DNA of 64,000 bases from an uncultured Alphaproteobacteria bacterium (GTDB lineage: Bacteria; Pseudomonadota; Alphaproteobacteria; HIMB59; GCA-002718135): the NCBI GenBank assembly GCA_902623545.1, contig CACNUI010000002.1:62001-126000 (forward strand), given 5' to 3'. Position numbers and translations under genes: made by a program. Shown here one piece after another: positions 8,562 to 15,856 of this stretch. Positions within the stretch are counted from its first letter, which is position 1. Every line of letters begins with the position of its first letter. The notes under the pieces were generated by a model. The model was not told where the DNA came from. It saw only the letters and a program-made list of their open reading frames with translations, and did not search any database.

Positions 8562-9356
8562 ATGGAAATAAATAAAATTACGAATTTATTGAATCTGGAG
8601 CATGTTAAGTTTTTAATATCTATCTTTAAAGAAAATAATATTGAAATCCGCTTAGTAGGAGGATGTATACGAGATGCTCTTCTTGAAAGAGAAATAAAAG
8701 ATATTGACACAGCGACAACTTTGGAGCCTCAAGATGTTTTGTCGTTATTAAAAGATAACAATATTGAATATGATGATTTTGCTATTCAATATGGTTCTAT
8801 AATTGCTTATCCTCATAATCGAAAAATACAAATTACAACTTTACGTGAGGATGTTAATCAAATGGGTAGACATACAAATGTAATTTATACCAACAACTGG
8901 AAAAAAGACTCAGCCAGAAGAGATTTTACTTTCAATGCTTTATATCTCGGAAACAATAATAAACTACATGATTATTACAATGGCCAATCAGATTTAAATG
9001 AAAGTAAAATTTGTTTTATTGGTGAAATAGAGGATAGAATAAAAGAAGATTACTTAAGAATCTATCGATACTTTAGATTTAGAGGTTTATTTAATTTACC
9101 TAAAACATCTTTAAGTGATCAAAAAATTGTAGAAAAATATATTCACGAATCTTTAGCGGTGTTGACCAACGATGTAATAAGGCAAGAAATATTAAAAATG
9201 TTTAATATGTCTTTTCCATTAAATTGTTTTTACATATCTCATCAAACGTTACAAAAATTTAAATGGGTTGAAATAGTCCAAGAGCATTTCATACGAACGA
9301 AATACGATCTTGGATTAAATAAATGTCTGAATAAGATTGATAATTTAATAAATTAG
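8562..9356 (+). CDS. CCA tRNA nucleotidyltransferase / poly(A) polymerase family, short form
   Basis: RLVGGCIRDALLEREIKDIDTATT and RRDFTFNALYLG; 264 aa. Confidence 0.85.
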   Translation: MEINKITNLLNLEHVKFLISIFKENNIEIRLVGGCIRDALLEREIKDIDTATTLEPQDVLSLLKDNNIEYDDFAIQYGSIIAYPHNRKIQITTLREDVNQMGRHTNVIYTNNWKKDSARRDFTFNALYLGNNNKLHDYYNGQSDLNESKICFIGEIEDRIKEDYLRIYRYFRFRGLFNLPKTSLSDQKIVEKYIHESLAVLTNDVIRQEILKMFNMSFPLNCFYISHQTLQKFKWVEIVQEHFIRTKYDLGLNKCLNKIDNLIN

Positions 9357-9757
9357 TTTTTTAGTTTACAACTTTCGCACAAACCAAATATTTCTAAATT
9401 ATGTTTTTTATAATTGAAGTTATTCTTTTCTGCTTGTTTTGAAAAATAAGAAATCAAATTATTTCCAGTTAACTCAGTAACACTATCACAGTTTTCACAT
9501 ATCAAAAAAGATGTAGAAGTTTTTGCATTACAGCCTTCATGCTTACAAGCAACATATGAATTTCTACTTTCTATTTTATGTACTTTGCCAATTTCTATAA
9601 GCTTATCTAAAGCTCTATAAACTTGAAGAGGAGATTTAATTCCTTTTTTTTGAATATCAAAAAGGATTGTATATGCCTTAAGAGGTTCTGATGCGCTTTC
9701 TAAAATATCTAGAACTGTTTGTTGATTTTTAGTTAAGTTTAAAGTTTCTAAAGACAT
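9353..9757 (-). CDS. zur: Fur-family regulator, probably Zur
   Basis: Fur-type winged helix and CEGCN/CENCD/CESCK cysteines; immediately downstream of znuB on the same strand. Confidence 0.85.
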   Translation of the reverse strand: MSLETLNLTKNQQTVLDILESASEPLKAYTILFDIQKKGIKSPLQVYRALDKLIEIGKVHKIESRNSYVACKHEGCNAKTSTSFLICENCDSVTELTGNNLISYFSKQAEKNNFNYKKHNLEIFGLCESCKLKN

Positions 9758-9776: not shown

Positions 9777-10583
9777 CTATCGTTTTTGCAACTGACCCTT
9801 AATTTCAAGAGGAACCAATGAAATAATGAAAAGTATTAAAGCCACCACTATTATTGAAGGCCCTGAAGAAGTATTTATTTCTAAAGAAGCAAATAATCCA
9901 ACTACTACTGATAAAATACCTGATAAGATTGCAATAACAATCATTTGTCTAGGACTGTTGCTAATGTTCCTGGCAATAGCCGCAGGAATTAAAAGTAAAC
10001 CTGTAATTAATAGTGCTCCAATCATTTTAATAGACAAAGCAATTACTCCTGCCAATAAAAGGGTAAATATAAAATTAGAAACTTCCGGCCGCATACCTTC
10101 AGCAGCTGACAAATCATAATTTACAGTTGCTGAAAATAAAGATTTCCAAATAAAATATAAGATAATTAATATTATGCTTCCACCTATCCAAACTAAACCA
10201 ATGTCTGCAGTTGTCACTGCAAGAATATCGCCAAATAATAATCCCATGAGATCAAATCGGATGAAAGATAAAAAACCAATCAATACTAAACCGATGGCAA
10301 GTGTTGAGTGAGCAAGAAGTCCAAGTAAAGAATCTCCAGCTAGTTTTGTTCTTTTTTGTAAGCTCACAAGAAGTAAAGCAACGACAGCTGATATTACAAA
10401 CACAGAAAAAGCAATATTTAAACTAAATGAGTATGCTAGTGTTACTCCTAAAAGTGCTGAGTGAGATAAGGTGTCACCAAAATATGATAACCTCCTCCAG
10501 ATAACTAAGCATCCAAGTGGTCCAGCAACAATAGCTATACCAACTCCTGCAACAAGTGCACGAATAAAAAAATCATCAAACAT
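9777..10583 (-). CDS. znuB: Zinc ABC transporter permease
   Basis: ABC-3 family permease (GDTLSHSALLGVTLAY); adjacent to znuC. Confidence 0.9.
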   Translation of the reverse strand: MFDDFFIRALVAGVGIAIVAGPLGCLVIWRRLSYFGDTLSHSALLGVTLAYSFSLNIAFSVFVISAVVALLLVSLQKRTKLAGDSLLGLLAHSTLAIGLVLIGFLSFIRFDLMGLLFGDILAVTTADIGLVWIGGSIILIILYFIWKSLFSATVNYDLSAAEGMRPEVSNFIFTLLLAGVIALSIKMIGALLITGLLLIPAAIARNISNSPRQMIVIAILSGILSVVVGLFASLEINTSSGPSIIVVALILFIISLVPLEIKGQLQKR

Positions 10584-11326
10584 TAATTTTTAACACTCCC
10601 ATCTGTCTGATGTGAATGATCATGTTCATGTTGATAGAGTGATAAGGTAGCAGCATTATGTTCTCCAAATAATTCTATGTAGGAAGAATTTTTTACTATT
10701 GATTTAGGTGATCCAGAACAACAAATGTGACCATTTAAACAAATTACATGATCTGTTGCAGACATAACAAAATGGAGATCATGAGATATAAGAAGGATGC
10801 CACAATTTAATTTGGTACAAATTTCTTTTATAAGATTGTATAGAGCTATTTCTCCATTAAAATCTACTCCCTGCACAGGTTCATCTAAAACAAGTAGATC
10901 TGGTTTTTTAGCAATTGCTCTTGCGATTAAAACTCTCTGAAATTCTCCACCAGATAAGTTATGAATCTCATTGTATATTAAATGCTGAACCCCTGTTAAT
11001 TCTAGAGCTTCAATAATTTCATCTTTATTAATATGACTTGTTAGATTCATAAAATCTATAACTCTAAGTGGCATAGTCCAATCGATACTAATTTTTTGCG
11101 GAACATATGCCATTTTTGTTGAATAATTTTCAATTGAACCTTCATCTGATTTTAGAATATTAAGTGCCATTTTAGCGGTAGTTGTTTTTCCTGAGCCATT
11201 TGGGCCAATCAAGGTTACAATTTTGCCCTTATGAATTTCAAGAGAGATACCTTTTACAATCCATTTTGAAGATTTTTGGATACCGCAATCTTTTAATCTT
11301 ACCAATAAATTATTATTTTCGTTCAT
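10583..11326 (-). CDS. znuC: Zinc ABC transporter ATP-binding protein
   Basis: GPNGSGKTTTAK Walker A, LSGGEFQRVLIARAI, LLVLDEPVQGVD; His-rich C-terminus (HEHDHSHQ). Confidence 0.92.
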   Translation of the reverse strand: MNENNNLLVRLKDCGIQKSSKWIVKGISLEIHKGKIVTLIGPNGSGKTTTAKMALNILKSDEGSIENYSTKMAYVPQKISIDWTMPLRVIDFMNLTSHINKDEIIEALELTGVQHLIYNEIHNLSGGEFQRVLIARAIAKKPDLLVLDEPVQGVDFNGEIALYNLIKEICTKLNCGILLISHDLHFVMSATDHVICLNGHICCSGSPKSIVKNSSYIELFGEHNAATLSLYQHEHDHSHQTDGSVKN

Positions 11327-11348: not shown

Positions 11349-11366
11349 GTAATATTATAACATTAC
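11349..11366. promoter_or_regulatory. Zur-like operator GTAATATTATAACATTAC
   Basis: Near-perfect 18-bp palindrome (reverse complement GTAATGTTATAATATTAC) in the divergent znuC/znuA intergenic region; resembles proteobacterial Zur boxes (core ATGTTATAATATAAC). Confidence 0.8.
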
Positions 11367-11405: not shown

Positions 11406-12506
11406 ATGAGACAAAACAACATTTTTTTGATGCTTTTGAAAGTATTTTTCTTTTCATCAATTTTAGTTGCAACTTCAGCTGTAAGAGCAGAATTTAAAGT
11501 TGTAACTACAATTAAACCACTTCATTCACTAATTGCGAATGTAATGGATGGTGTAGGTCAACCAGCACTTATAATTGAAGGAAGTACTTCCCCCCATAGC
11601 TTTACATTAAAACCTTCTCATGCCAAGCTTTTAGAAGAAGCAGATATCATATTCTGGGTTGGTGAAAGTATAGAAACGTTCATGGAAAGACCTCTTGAGT
11701 CAATTGTCAAAAATGCAGAAGTTGTAGAGTTCATGGAAGTTGAAAGTATTAATAAATTGAAGTTTAGAGAAGAATCGATTTTTGAAGATCACGACGACCA
11801 TGATGATCACGACGACCATGATGATCACGATGACCATGATGATCACGATGACCATGACGACCATGACGACCACGATGATCACGATGACCATGATGATCAC
11901 GATGATCACGATGACCATGATGATCACGATGACCATGATGATCACGACGACCACGATGACCATGACGATCACAGTGGACACGATCACCACGGTCATGCAC
12001 ATGGTGAATTCGACGCTCACATTTGGCTAGATCCAATGAATGCAAAAGAAATGGTTCATGAAATTGCTCATGAGTTAAGTGATTTAGATCCTGCCAATAA
12101 AGAGAAATATGAAGCAAATGCTGATGCAACAATCAAAGCTTTAGACCAATTGATAAATGACGTTAGCAAGGATATTAATTCCGATGCAAAATTTGTCGTT
12201 TTCCATGACGCCTACCAGTACTTTGAAGAAAGATTTGATGTAAGAGCTGCAGGAGCTTTAACATTGAATACTGATGTTTTACCTGGTGCTAAACAGATTG
12301 CTGATATTCAAGATGTAATTAAGGATAGAGGAATAAAATGTATCTTCTCTGAACCTCAATTTAATCCAAAGATAATTACAACGATAGCTGAAGATATGAA
12401 TATCAAAACTGGAGTTTTTGATCCTTTAGGTGCTAACATTGATGCTGGTAAGTCACTTTACTTTACGTTGATTAGTAATCTTGGGGACGAGCTTAAAGGC
12501 TGTTAA
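11406..12506 (+). CDS. znuA: Zinc ABC transporter substrate-binding protein with expanded His/Asp loop
   Basis: TTIKPLHSLIANVMDGVG, AHIWLDPMNAKEM, VFHDAYQYFEERF; long HDD repeat followed by HSGHDHHGHAHG. Confidence 0.93.
   Translation: MRQNNIFLMLLKVFFFSSILVATSAVRAEFKVVTTIKPLHSLIANVMDGVGQPALIIEGSTSPHSFTLKPSHAKLLEEADIIFWVGESIETFMERPLESIVKNAEVVEFMEVESINKLKFREESIFEDHDDHDDHDDHDDHDDHDDHDDHDDHDDHDDHDDHDDHDDHDDHDDHDDHDDHDDHDDHDDHSGHDHHGHAHGEFDAHIWLDPMNAKEMVHEIAHELSDLDPANKEKYEANADATIKALDQLINDVSKDINSDAKFVVFHDAYQYFEERFDVRAAGALTLNTDVLPGAKQIADIQDVIKDRGIKCIFSEPQFNPKIITTIAEDMNIKTGVFDPLGANIDAGKSLYFTLISNLGDELKGC
11790..11972 (+). repeat. In-frame 9-bp tandem repeat encoding (His-Asp-Asp)x20 plus terminal His
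   Basis: Direct reading of CAY-GAY-GAY units from 11790 to 11972, with synonymous CAC/CAT and GAC/GAT variation between units. Confidence 0.97.
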
Positions 12507-12522
12507 TTTTTAATATTTAAAT

Positions 12523-12551
12523 AAATTCCACCTTGTATGAAGGTGGAATTT
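12523..12551 (+). other. Intergenic RNA hairpin after znuA (12-bp stem, 5-nt loop)
   Basis: AAATTCCACCTT-GTATG-AAGGTGGAATTT; no U-tract afterwards. Confidence 0.8.
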
Positions 12552-12577
12552 ATAGAACTAATTATAAGGAAATTGAT

Positions 12578-13549
12578 ATGGAAAATACTTCTCAGGTTCC
12601 AGTTACGGTTTTAACAGGTTTTCTTGGAGCTGGAAAAACAACACTTTTAAATCGAATTTTAACTGAACAACATGGACGGAAATACGCTGTCATTGTTAAT
12701 GAATTTGGTGAGCAGGGAATTGATAATGACCTTGTTGTTGATGCTGATGAAGAAGTATTTGAAATGAATAACGGGTGCATTTGTTGCACTGTTAGAGGTG
12801 ATTTAATTAGAATTCTAAGTGGTTTAATGAAACGTGCTGATAAACTAGATGCAATTATAGTTGAAACAACTGGTTTAGCTGATCCAGCCCCAGTTGCTCA
12901 GACATTTTTTGTTGATCAAGATGTTGCTGATCGCACAAAATTAGATGCAATTGTTACAGTTGCCGATGCTGTTCATCTAAGTTCTCAATTAGTCGATCAT
13001 CATGAAGCAGAAGAACAAATTGCTTTTGCTGATGTAATTTTACTAAATAAAGTTGAACTTGTTGAAGATAATGACATTGTGAAAGTTAATGATCGTATAA
13101 GAAAAATTAACCCTTTTGCAAAGATTATTAAAACAACACGTTGTGATGCACCTCTTGATGAAATCGTAGGCTTAAATGCATTTAGTCTAGATAGAGTATT
13201 AGATATTGAACCTGACTTTCTTGAATCAGATCATGATCATGAACATGATGATGATGTTACTAGTCTATCCTTTGTATCTGATACACCATTAGACATGGAT
13301 AAGTTTCAAGATTGGTTTGGAAATTTACTGAGGACTAAGGGTCAGGATATTCTTCGATCAAAAGGAATTTTGAACTTTAAAGGTGAAGAAGAGCGATATG
13401 TATTTCAAGGAGTGCATATGCTTATGGATGCCTCACCAATGGGACCTTGGCCCAAAGGAAAAAATAGAAGTTCTCGAGTAGTATTTATTGGTCGTGATCT
13501 TGATAATATGAATCTTAAGGAAGGCTTTGAAAATTGTAAATCAGCATGA
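12578..13549 (+). CDS. CobW/COG0523 GTPase, putative zinc metallochaperone; start revised from 12533 to 12578
   Basis: [18 protein letters not shown] Walker [14 protein letters not shown] (CxCC), DHDHEHDDD linker; start at MENTSQ preceded by AAGGA, whereas the 12533 start lies inside a hairpin. Confidence 0.9.
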
Positions 13550-14583
13550 ACGCTGATTTAGAAAAACTTCAGGAAACAAATAAAACTGAACTTGAAAGAA
13601 GAGGTTCAATTTTTAATATTGGAGCCCCAGCTACAGAAGCGGTTACAACTCGTGATCAAATAGCGGTAGGATTTGGAGACGGCACTGTAAGATTTTTTCA
13701 ATCTGGATCTGATCCTAAAACTGTTAAAGCACATAAGGGTGTAGTGTTGAGTATGACAAATTATGAAGATCATGTGTTAACGGGAGGAGACGATGGACGT
13801 TTTCTAAAAATATCATCTGATGGAAATATTGAAGAAATTTTTAATTTTGGTTCAAAGTGGGTTGACTGTGTAGCTTCCCACAAAGATACTAAAGTTTGTT
13901 CATCAGGAAAGACTGTTTATATTTGGACAAAAAACAAAGATAAACCACAAACTTTAGAGCATCAAAGTACTGTTGCTGGATTAGCATTTGATAATAAAGG
14001 TAAGCGTCTTGCGGTCTCAAGATACGGTGGAGTAACAGTGTGGAAACTTAATAATAATAAATGGACAGCCTCAAATTATACCTGGAAAGGATCGCATGGA
14101 ACTGTAACGTTTAGCCCAGATACAAAATATATTGTAACTGCAATGCAAGAAAATCAAATTCATGGTTGGCGCATAAACGACAAAGCGGATTTAGCAATGA
14201 GAGGTTATCCATCAAAAATTAAAAGTTTTACTTGGGTTGGTGATACACCGTATTTGGTAACATCTGGATCCAGTGATGCAGTTTGCTGGCCATTTGATGG
14301 TAAAGAAGGACCAATGGGGAGAAAGCCAATTGTTGTTGCAAACGGTGGTAAAGAACTTGCAACATTTGTTAAAGCACTTAATGGAGAAAAAGCTGTTTTC
14401 ACTGGTTTTACAGATGGGTCAGTTTTATTAGCAGAAATTGATGAAAGTAAAAAACCAATTATGATTAGAAGTTCAACAGGTGCAGAAGTTTCAACAATAG
14501 CTATATCTAGTGATAACTCACAAATATTAATTGGCGATATGAAAGGTTCTATTCTTTTATCATCCTTATGGGCAGACAATTAA
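13546..14583 (+). CDS. WD40/beta-propeller repeat protein in the zinc locus
   Basis: Repeated WD-like units ([50 protein letters not shown]); overlaps the COG0523 stop codon. Confidence 0.8.
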
Positions 14584-14593
14584 GAGAGAAAAT

Positions 14594-14848
14594 ATGTTTA
14601 ATCGTAAAACTCAAAATGTTGAAAAAATAAGAAATCTCAAAAATTTAATTTCCAAGAAATATAAATTACCAGAAAATACTATAATAAGTATTGCTGAGCT
14701 CAGTTGTCATGAACCTGATTGTCCACCAATTGAAACTGTAATTACTGCAAGAAATGAAGACGGATCAATGAAAAATTGGCGAGTCGCAAAATCAATAGAA
14801 GAAATAGAGGAGTCAGATATTAATAATCTAACAAATCACACTCATTAA
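14594..14848 (+). CDS. Small conserved-looking hypothetical protein at the end of the zinc operon
   Basis: 84-aa ORF 10 bp after the WD40 gene; contains ELSCHEPDCPPIETV (Cys/His cluster). Confidence 0.6.
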   Translation: MFNRKTQNVEKIRNLKNLISKKYKLPENTIISIAELSCHEPDCPPIETVITARNEDGSMKNWRVAKSIEEIEESDINNLTNHTH

Positions 14849-14871: not shown

Positions 14872-14955
14872 TTAACAGCAATCTCCACCTTCACAAGTAC
14901 AGCAACAGCTACAACTGCATCCACACTTTGGTGGGTTTGGATTTTGATTTTTCAT
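14872..14955 (-). CDS. 27-aa cysteine-rich mini-protein (metallothionein-like), not in ORF track
   Basis: Manual minus-strand translation: MKNQNPNPPKCGCSCSCCCTCEGGDCC*; 9 Cys of 27; AGG-containing SD-like sequence upstream (TATAGGTATTATT-ATG). Confidence 0.6.
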   Translation of the reverse strand: MKNQNPNPPKCGCSCSCCCTCEGGDCC

Positions 14956-14998
14956 AATAATACCTATATCTATATCTGAATAATTTTTAAACAAATTA

Positions 14999-15856
14999 AT
15001 GAGAAAAATAATAGAAATTAAAGAGTGTATGAAGACTTTTGAGGGTGACGGGATACCTGTAACGAGAGCTTTCCCTGTACCCGGAATGAGAGAAAATGAT
15101 CCATTTCTTCTTTTTGATCATTTCGGCCCAATTAATTATGAGCCAGGAGGTGCAACTGGTGTACCAGCACATCCTCATTGTGGATTTGAGGCAATTACTT
15201 ATATGCTTGGTGGTGAAGTAGAGCATAGAGACTCATTTGGAGGACAAGCAGAAATTGAAACTGGTGATGTACAATGGATGACAACTGGATCAGGTTTAAT
15301 CCACTCTGAATTAGTAACAGAAAAATTTAAGAAGAGTGGTGGTATCATGCAAGGATTACAAATTTGGGTAAACCTTCCACAAAAAAATAAAAAAGTTAAA
15401 CCTTGGTACCAACATATTAAAAGAAACACTATTCCAACATTATCTGAAAATACAAATATAGAAATTAAAGTTCTTGTGGGTGAAATAAATGGAACCAAAT
15501 CCAAAGTTCAAACATATTCACCTGTATCAATATTTGATATTCAATTTTCAAAACCAGATATGACAAAGTTTAATGTTGATAAAGAACAAAATCTTATGAT
15601 CTATATTATCGATGGTCAATTACAATTTAATGAGGAAAATAAAATCGCTAATAAAGGTGATATGATTTACTTTGATCAGTCAAGTGATGAGATTCAACTT
15701 ACATCAATATCAGAAAAAGGATCCTACCTAGTTTTAGCAGGTAAGCCGCTTAAAGAACCTGTAGCACGTTATGGTCCTTTTGTGGCAAATTCTGAAGGAG
15801 AAATTAAACAAGCAATGATGGACTATCAAGAAGGAAAGATGGGAAGCTTAGCTTAA
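14999..15856 (+). CDS. Pirin family protein
   Basis: DPFLLFDHFGP, HPHCGFEAITYMLGGEVEHRDSFGG, SGLIHSEL. Confidence 0.92.
   Translation: MRKIIEIKECMKTFEGDGIPVTRAFPVPGMRENDPFLLFDHFGPINYEPGGATGVPAHPHCGFEAITYMLGGEVEHRDSFGGQAEIETGDVQWMTTGSGLIHSELVTEKFKKSGGIMQGLQIWVNLPQKNKKVKPWYQHIKRNTIPTLSENTNIEIKVLVGEINGTKSKVQTYSPVSIFDIQFSKPDMTKFNVDKEQNLMIYIIDGQLQFNEENKIANKGDMIYFDQSSDEIQLTSISEKGSYLVLAGKPLKEPVARYGPFVANSEGEIKQAMMDYQEGKMGSLA

Follow-up and report, generated by a model that had tools for sequence, protein, structure and literature searches.

Does an open reading frame of only 27 codons, nine of them for cysteine, encode a real peptide when it lies beside a zinc gene cluster, and if it does, what would such a peptide do? 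The frame occupies positions 14955-14872 on the minus strand of the 64 kb stretch of DNA analysed here (the window; GC content 30.2%), specifies the product MKNQNPNPPKCGCSCSCCCTCEGGDCC, and is unannotated and shorter than the length that gene callers usually accept. The original prediction had described 27 residues with nine cysteines on the minus strand at 14872-14955, and re-reading recovers exactly the same frame. The cysteines are spaced CxCxCxCCCxC....CC, there is neither a histidine nor an aromatic residue, and the head of the peptide is rich in asparagine and proline.

The locus

The features referred to below are, in order along the window:

9353-9757, minus strand: Zur-like Fur-family regulator (Pfam FUR; best NCBIfam model Zur, below its cut-off)
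9777-10583, minus strand: ABC transporter permease, ZnuB-like (assigned by eye from the ORF list and position)
10583-11326, minus strand: ABC transporter ATPase, ZnuC-like (assigned by eye from the ORF list and position)
11349-11366, unstranded: Zur box GTAATATTATAACATTAC, between znuC and znuA, the best-scoring site in the window
11406-12506, plus strand: ZnuA zinc-binding protein with a long His/Asp repeat (Pfam PF01297, E 5e-59)
12533-13549, plus strand: CobW/COG0523 GTPase, putative zinc chaperone (Pfam)
13546-14583, plus strand: WD40-repeat protein of the zinc cluster (Pfam)
14594-14848, plus strand: 84-aa protein, no family, last gene of the zinc cluster (ORF list; conserved in relatives)
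14955-14872, minus strand: nine-cysteine peptide gene, 84 nt including the stop codon, 27 aa (frame and cysteines conserved, dN/dS 0.045)
14956-14973, minus strand: AGG ribosome-site-like stretch, TATAGGTATTATT before the ATG (weak; pirin-flanked copies only)
14999-15856, plus strand: pirin (Pfam), divergent neighbour, with murJ instead in 13 related loci

The zinc operon named as a neighbour by the original prediction is thus recognizable from profile matches to the Fur/Zur-family regulator, ZnuA and the CobW/COG0523 protein; comparison with relatives suggests that the conserved start of the latter probably lies near 12578. The 84-aa protein has no Pfam or NCBIfam match, carries a conserved AELSCHEPDCPPIETVI stretch, and always follows the WD40 gene in the zinc cluster. 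The prediction had the peptide facing away from the zinc operon, but the two are in fact convergent (tail-to-tail), with 23 bp between the peptide frame and the 3' end of the 84-aa ORF, and it is from pirin, whose ATG is at 14999 on the plus strand, that the peptide gene diverges (head-to-head, 43 bp gap). A plus-strand terminator-like stem followed by T lies within the peptide frame, at 14919-14936, where it could block read-through coming from the zinc cluster.

A small gene under strong selection

The simplest explanation of so short a frame is chance, and its length, under the usual gene-caller limit, is in keeping with this. The seven-cysteine core C-x-C-x-C-x-CCC-x-C, however, is found at a single place in the window and did not turn up in any of 100 dinucleotide-preserving shuffles of it, and a search of the order found the peptide in 110 of 162 genomes, which bears out the earlier contention that such a cysteine content is improbable by chance. 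The 110 genomes comprise 74 of the peptide's own genus and 36 of a sister family, each with one copy; the sister-family genome G037 lacks it. Many genomes are incomplete, so that single absences are weak evidence, and genomes of one genus are not independent of each other. Across both families the peptide is 26-27 residues long, the diverged 26-residue sister-family form being MDNNKPKPDCGCSCSCCCTCGDGCCQ, and all nine cysteines are invariant among the sequences read, with one exception. This is a frameshifted copy in G016 (L015, L289), in which the terminal CC is replaced and about 22 other residues are appended; it could represent genuine variation or faulty assembly.

Selection on the codons can be seen within each family. 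Among 36 distinct standard-length sequences of the own genus dN/dS is 0.045 (mean pS 0.43, pN 0.028), and among 20 sister-family sequences it is 0.050. Variable columns are distributed over the first, second and third codon positions as 6, 5 and 22 in the genus (22 of 33 at the third) and as 2, 2 and 22 in the sister family (22 of 26). Residues other than cysteine, namely PNPPK and CEGG, are kept as well, and the peptide frame persists while the flanking DNA is wholly different between contexts. The comparison with relatives that the original prediction had proposed as its check therefore found the frame and all nine cysteines retained under strong purifying selection, and not their loss. Purifying selection at the codon level, seen in two families whose flanks differ, with substitutions concentrated at third positions, leads us to reject a chance frame, whose probability we regard as negligible; on this comparative evidence the ORF is a real gene under strong selection.

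Genomic context in the genus and the sister family

In the own genus the peptide gene is convergent with znuA, on one contig and less than 3 kb away, in all 69 genomes in which both were found. Three spacings recur, of about 50 bp (22 genomes), 2.37 kb and 2.85 kb, and in the representative loci that were fully read these correspond to no intervening gene, to a cobW-WD40-84aa cassette, and to that cassette plus a DUF1636 gene. On its other side the peptide is flanked by pirin in 54 loci (5 of them by eye) and by murJ in 13. Five of the six possible combinations of flank and cassette exist when two lists are combined, which indicates that the peptide and the zinc cluster remain together as the surroundings change. 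In two genomes of the genus, G062 and G066, znuA adjoins murJ and the peptide is missing.

The zinc cluster itself is found at different chromosomal sites among relatives, and its cobW-WD40-84aa(-DUF1636) cassette has been gained or lost (L288, L291, L294, L345), so that the cluster behaves like a mobile module. The tandem HDD repeat of ZnuA, a metal-binding loop, also varies widely in length among relatives, with ORFs of 333 to 530 aa (L288, L290, L294).

The sister family presents a different picture, as the peptide was on the znuA contig in none of 30 genomes. There its neighbours are genes for a circularly permuted ATP-grasp protein and a proteasome-type peptidase (L028, L268-L287), the latter lying in the convergent neighbouring region at 20 of 20 loci, and eight sister-family genomes that are devoid of the peptide are devoid of the peptidase also. 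The zinc link is accordingly a fact at the level of the genus and not a universal one: the connection that the original prediction had drawn with caution has become stronger within the genus, as judged by the znu cluster (69/69), and is missing in the sister family.

This second context raises the possibility that nearby enzymes modify the peptide, which would then be a RiPP precursor and its product, for instance, a chelator; the sister-family ATP-grasp protein, whose gene together with that of the peptidase adjoins the peptide gene, could be one such enzyme. Yet no modification enzyme is evident beside the peptide in the own-genus loci read, and the peptidase is missing in seven tested own-genus genomes that do have the peptide. 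Among the neighbouring genes read there is no modification enzyme linked to the peptide in all hosts, and we consider a RiPP precursor unsupported and very improbable.

A further rival reading, that the frame is a cysteine-sensing leader peptide or attenuator, acting through its translation on a gene downstream, derives its appeal from the extreme shortness of the peptide, its runs of cysteines and its own start codon. In all contexts read, however (pirin, murJ and sister family), the next downstream gene is on the opposite strand, so there is no close same-strand gene for it to control. The conservation of the PNPPK and CEGG residues also speaks against cysteine sensing, and no Rfam model matched near its gathering score. 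Control of this kind is hard to credit.

Expression signals

A perfect Zur box, with a site score of 23.8, precedes znuA; upstream of the peptide copies there is no comparable site, the best scores being at background level, and by the measure of a promoter Zur box the peptide gene lies outside the Zur regulon. A simple scan for sigma-70 promoters gave none for it, and the gene is probably transcribed from a promoter of its own that Zur does not control. The AGG-containing sequence likened to a Shine-Dalgarno site by the original prediction is present and survives as TATAGGTATNATT-ATG where pirin is the flank, but it is not kept in the murJ-flanked or sister-family copies.

Metal exporters in the hosts

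Searches for E1-E2 P-type ATPases, CDF exporters and HMA chaperones found none in 13 genomes of the order (G000, G112, G085, G092, G022, G062, G130, G037, G038, G039, G040, G042 and G043), 11 of which are at least 90% complete; the same searches, which covered these three classes, were positive in 13-14 of 14 control genomes. To be missing P-type ATPases, CDF exporters and HMA metallochaperones is unusual among free-living bacteria.

Comparison with known metallothioneins

By sequence the peptide has the hallmarks of a metallothionein, being small and cysteine-rich, with CxC and CC motifs and no aromatic residues. In the beta domain of vertebrate metallothionein nine cysteines hold three divalent ions. 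The peptide shares this number of cysteines, but their spacing is different, it stands alone, and its cluster is a prediction.

The bacterial metallothioneins SmtA and BmtA (PF02069) are about 56 aa long. They are likewise small cysteine-rich proteins, and in marine Synechococcus Zur acts as repressor of znuABC and as activator of a metallothionein in which zinc is banked (PMC9337993), the metallothionein and znuABC sharing one Zur system. By analogy, this Zur-linked metallothionein is the nearest functional precedent. The peptide described here differs in having 27 aa, no histidine ligand and no Zur box, and 26-27 residues leave no room for the zinc-finger fold of SmtA/BmtA. No genome of the order has a classical bacterial metallothionein above the PF02069 cut-off, and membership of that family was rejected since the 26-27 aa sequences have neither a profile match nor a histidine.

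In its nearly equal length and in the exclusive use of cysteine ligands the peptide resembles short fungal Cu-thioneins, such as the 26-aa metallothionein of Neurospora crassa, which has seven cysteines spaced CxCx3CxC...CxCxxC (PMC4755600). The present peptide is bacterial and has nine cysteines in the arrangement CxCxCxCCCxC....CC, so that assignment to the fungal type was rejected on spacing; there is no evidence of common descent.

Relatives were also sought beyond the order, which is most likely AEGEAN-169/HIMB59, a streamlined marine group (PMC10308909). Neither a class sample of 385 genomes nor a phylum sample of 399 genomes yielded a credible relative outside the order. The weak profile matches in these samples (E >= 0.005) were rejected as short and mostly inside longer frames; the class-wide ones read in detail are not cysteine-rich mini-genes, and the four phylum-wide ones were judged on score alone. 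The peptide has no match in Pfam (to E 1), NCBIfam or, by sequence, the PDB, and a literature search found no description of it. Among the matches listed in a pattern scan of genome contigs, the single-cell genome AG-917-M17 of an uncultured alphaproteobacterium (L046) is the only true relative, the others being mostly poly-cysteine noise. Two viral pattern scans gave only low-complexity ORFs among the matches listed, and a viral search with pirin as query found nothing.

A minimal metallothionein-like peptide?

Close-packed cysteines in CxC and CC motifs are typical of metal-thiolate clusters. The nine invariant cysteines of the peptide, the lack of histidine and aromatic residues and the head rich in asparagine and proline suggest a metal-thiolate ligand. 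Taking these features together with the conservation, the attachment to the zinc cluster in the genus, the exporter searches and the Synechococcus precedent, we think it probable that the peptide serves in the cytosol as a minimal thiolate buffer of metallothionein type, with zinc or possibly copper as its metal. The stand-alone gene would be translated into a minimal metallothionein-like peptide whose nine thiolates, in the reducing cytosol, would wrap a small metal-thiolate cluster, predicted to be about the size of that in the vertebrate beta domain (nine cysteines, three divalent ions) or else a polynuclear Cu(I) cluster. Such a peptide might buffer or bank the zinc that ZnuABC imports, or sequester zinc, copper or cadmium present in excess; this buffering would suit host cells that have high-affinity zinc import and seem to lack the usual export pumps.

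As to a role in metal homeostasis, the zinc cluster is adjacent in the genus and not in the sister family, and the gene has no Zur box. Three observations count against a metal buffer: the lack of a Zur box, the position of the sister-family copies away from zinc genes, and the presence of znuA without the peptide in G062 and G066. The miniature metallothionein-like chelator of the original prediction is nevertheless still the preferred reading, and its other option, a regulatory peptide, is weakened because there is neither a close same-direction gene downstream nor a Zur box.

Zinc is favoured as the metal because of the neighbourhood, and copper is the main alternative. The peptide could be chiefly a copper(I) thionein of the short fungal kind, whose position next to the zinc genes is incidental: 26-aa fungal peptides with cysteine as sole ligand are Cu-thioneins (PMC4755600), the 13 genomes searched revealed neither a CopA-type ATPase nor an HMA copper chaperone, and in the sister family the peptide gene is not near zinc genes. 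That it adjoins the zinc cluster in 69 of 69 genomes of its own genus weighs against this, and we hold it to be unlikely, if worth keeping in mind. Distinctly less probable is a redox or iron-sulfur-related cysteine peptide, or a protein partner, in place of a metal buffer. Cysteine richness alone is no proof of metal storage and the context differs between the families, but nine packed cysteines in CxC and CC motifs, with no other conserved residues of secondary structure, count against such a role.

If the metallothionein-like reading is taken further, the peptide may represent a novel class of metallothionein, with a nine-cysteine, histidine-free core and roughly half as long as those known from bacteria, that stores or buffers the zinc brought in by the high-affinity importer of streamlined ocean bacteria that have no P-type or CDF metal exporters; we put this forward tentatively, as somewhat short of an even chance. 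Conserved small cysteine-rich genes get overlooked in genome annotation, and the present gene is an example. Were the peptide to bind zinc, it would rank with the shortest metallothioneins that are genetically encoded and would offer a clean test of the minimal sequence that a metal-thiolate cluster needs, and it would mean that abundant, gene-poor marine bacteria manage zinc through import and thiol buffering, and not through export.
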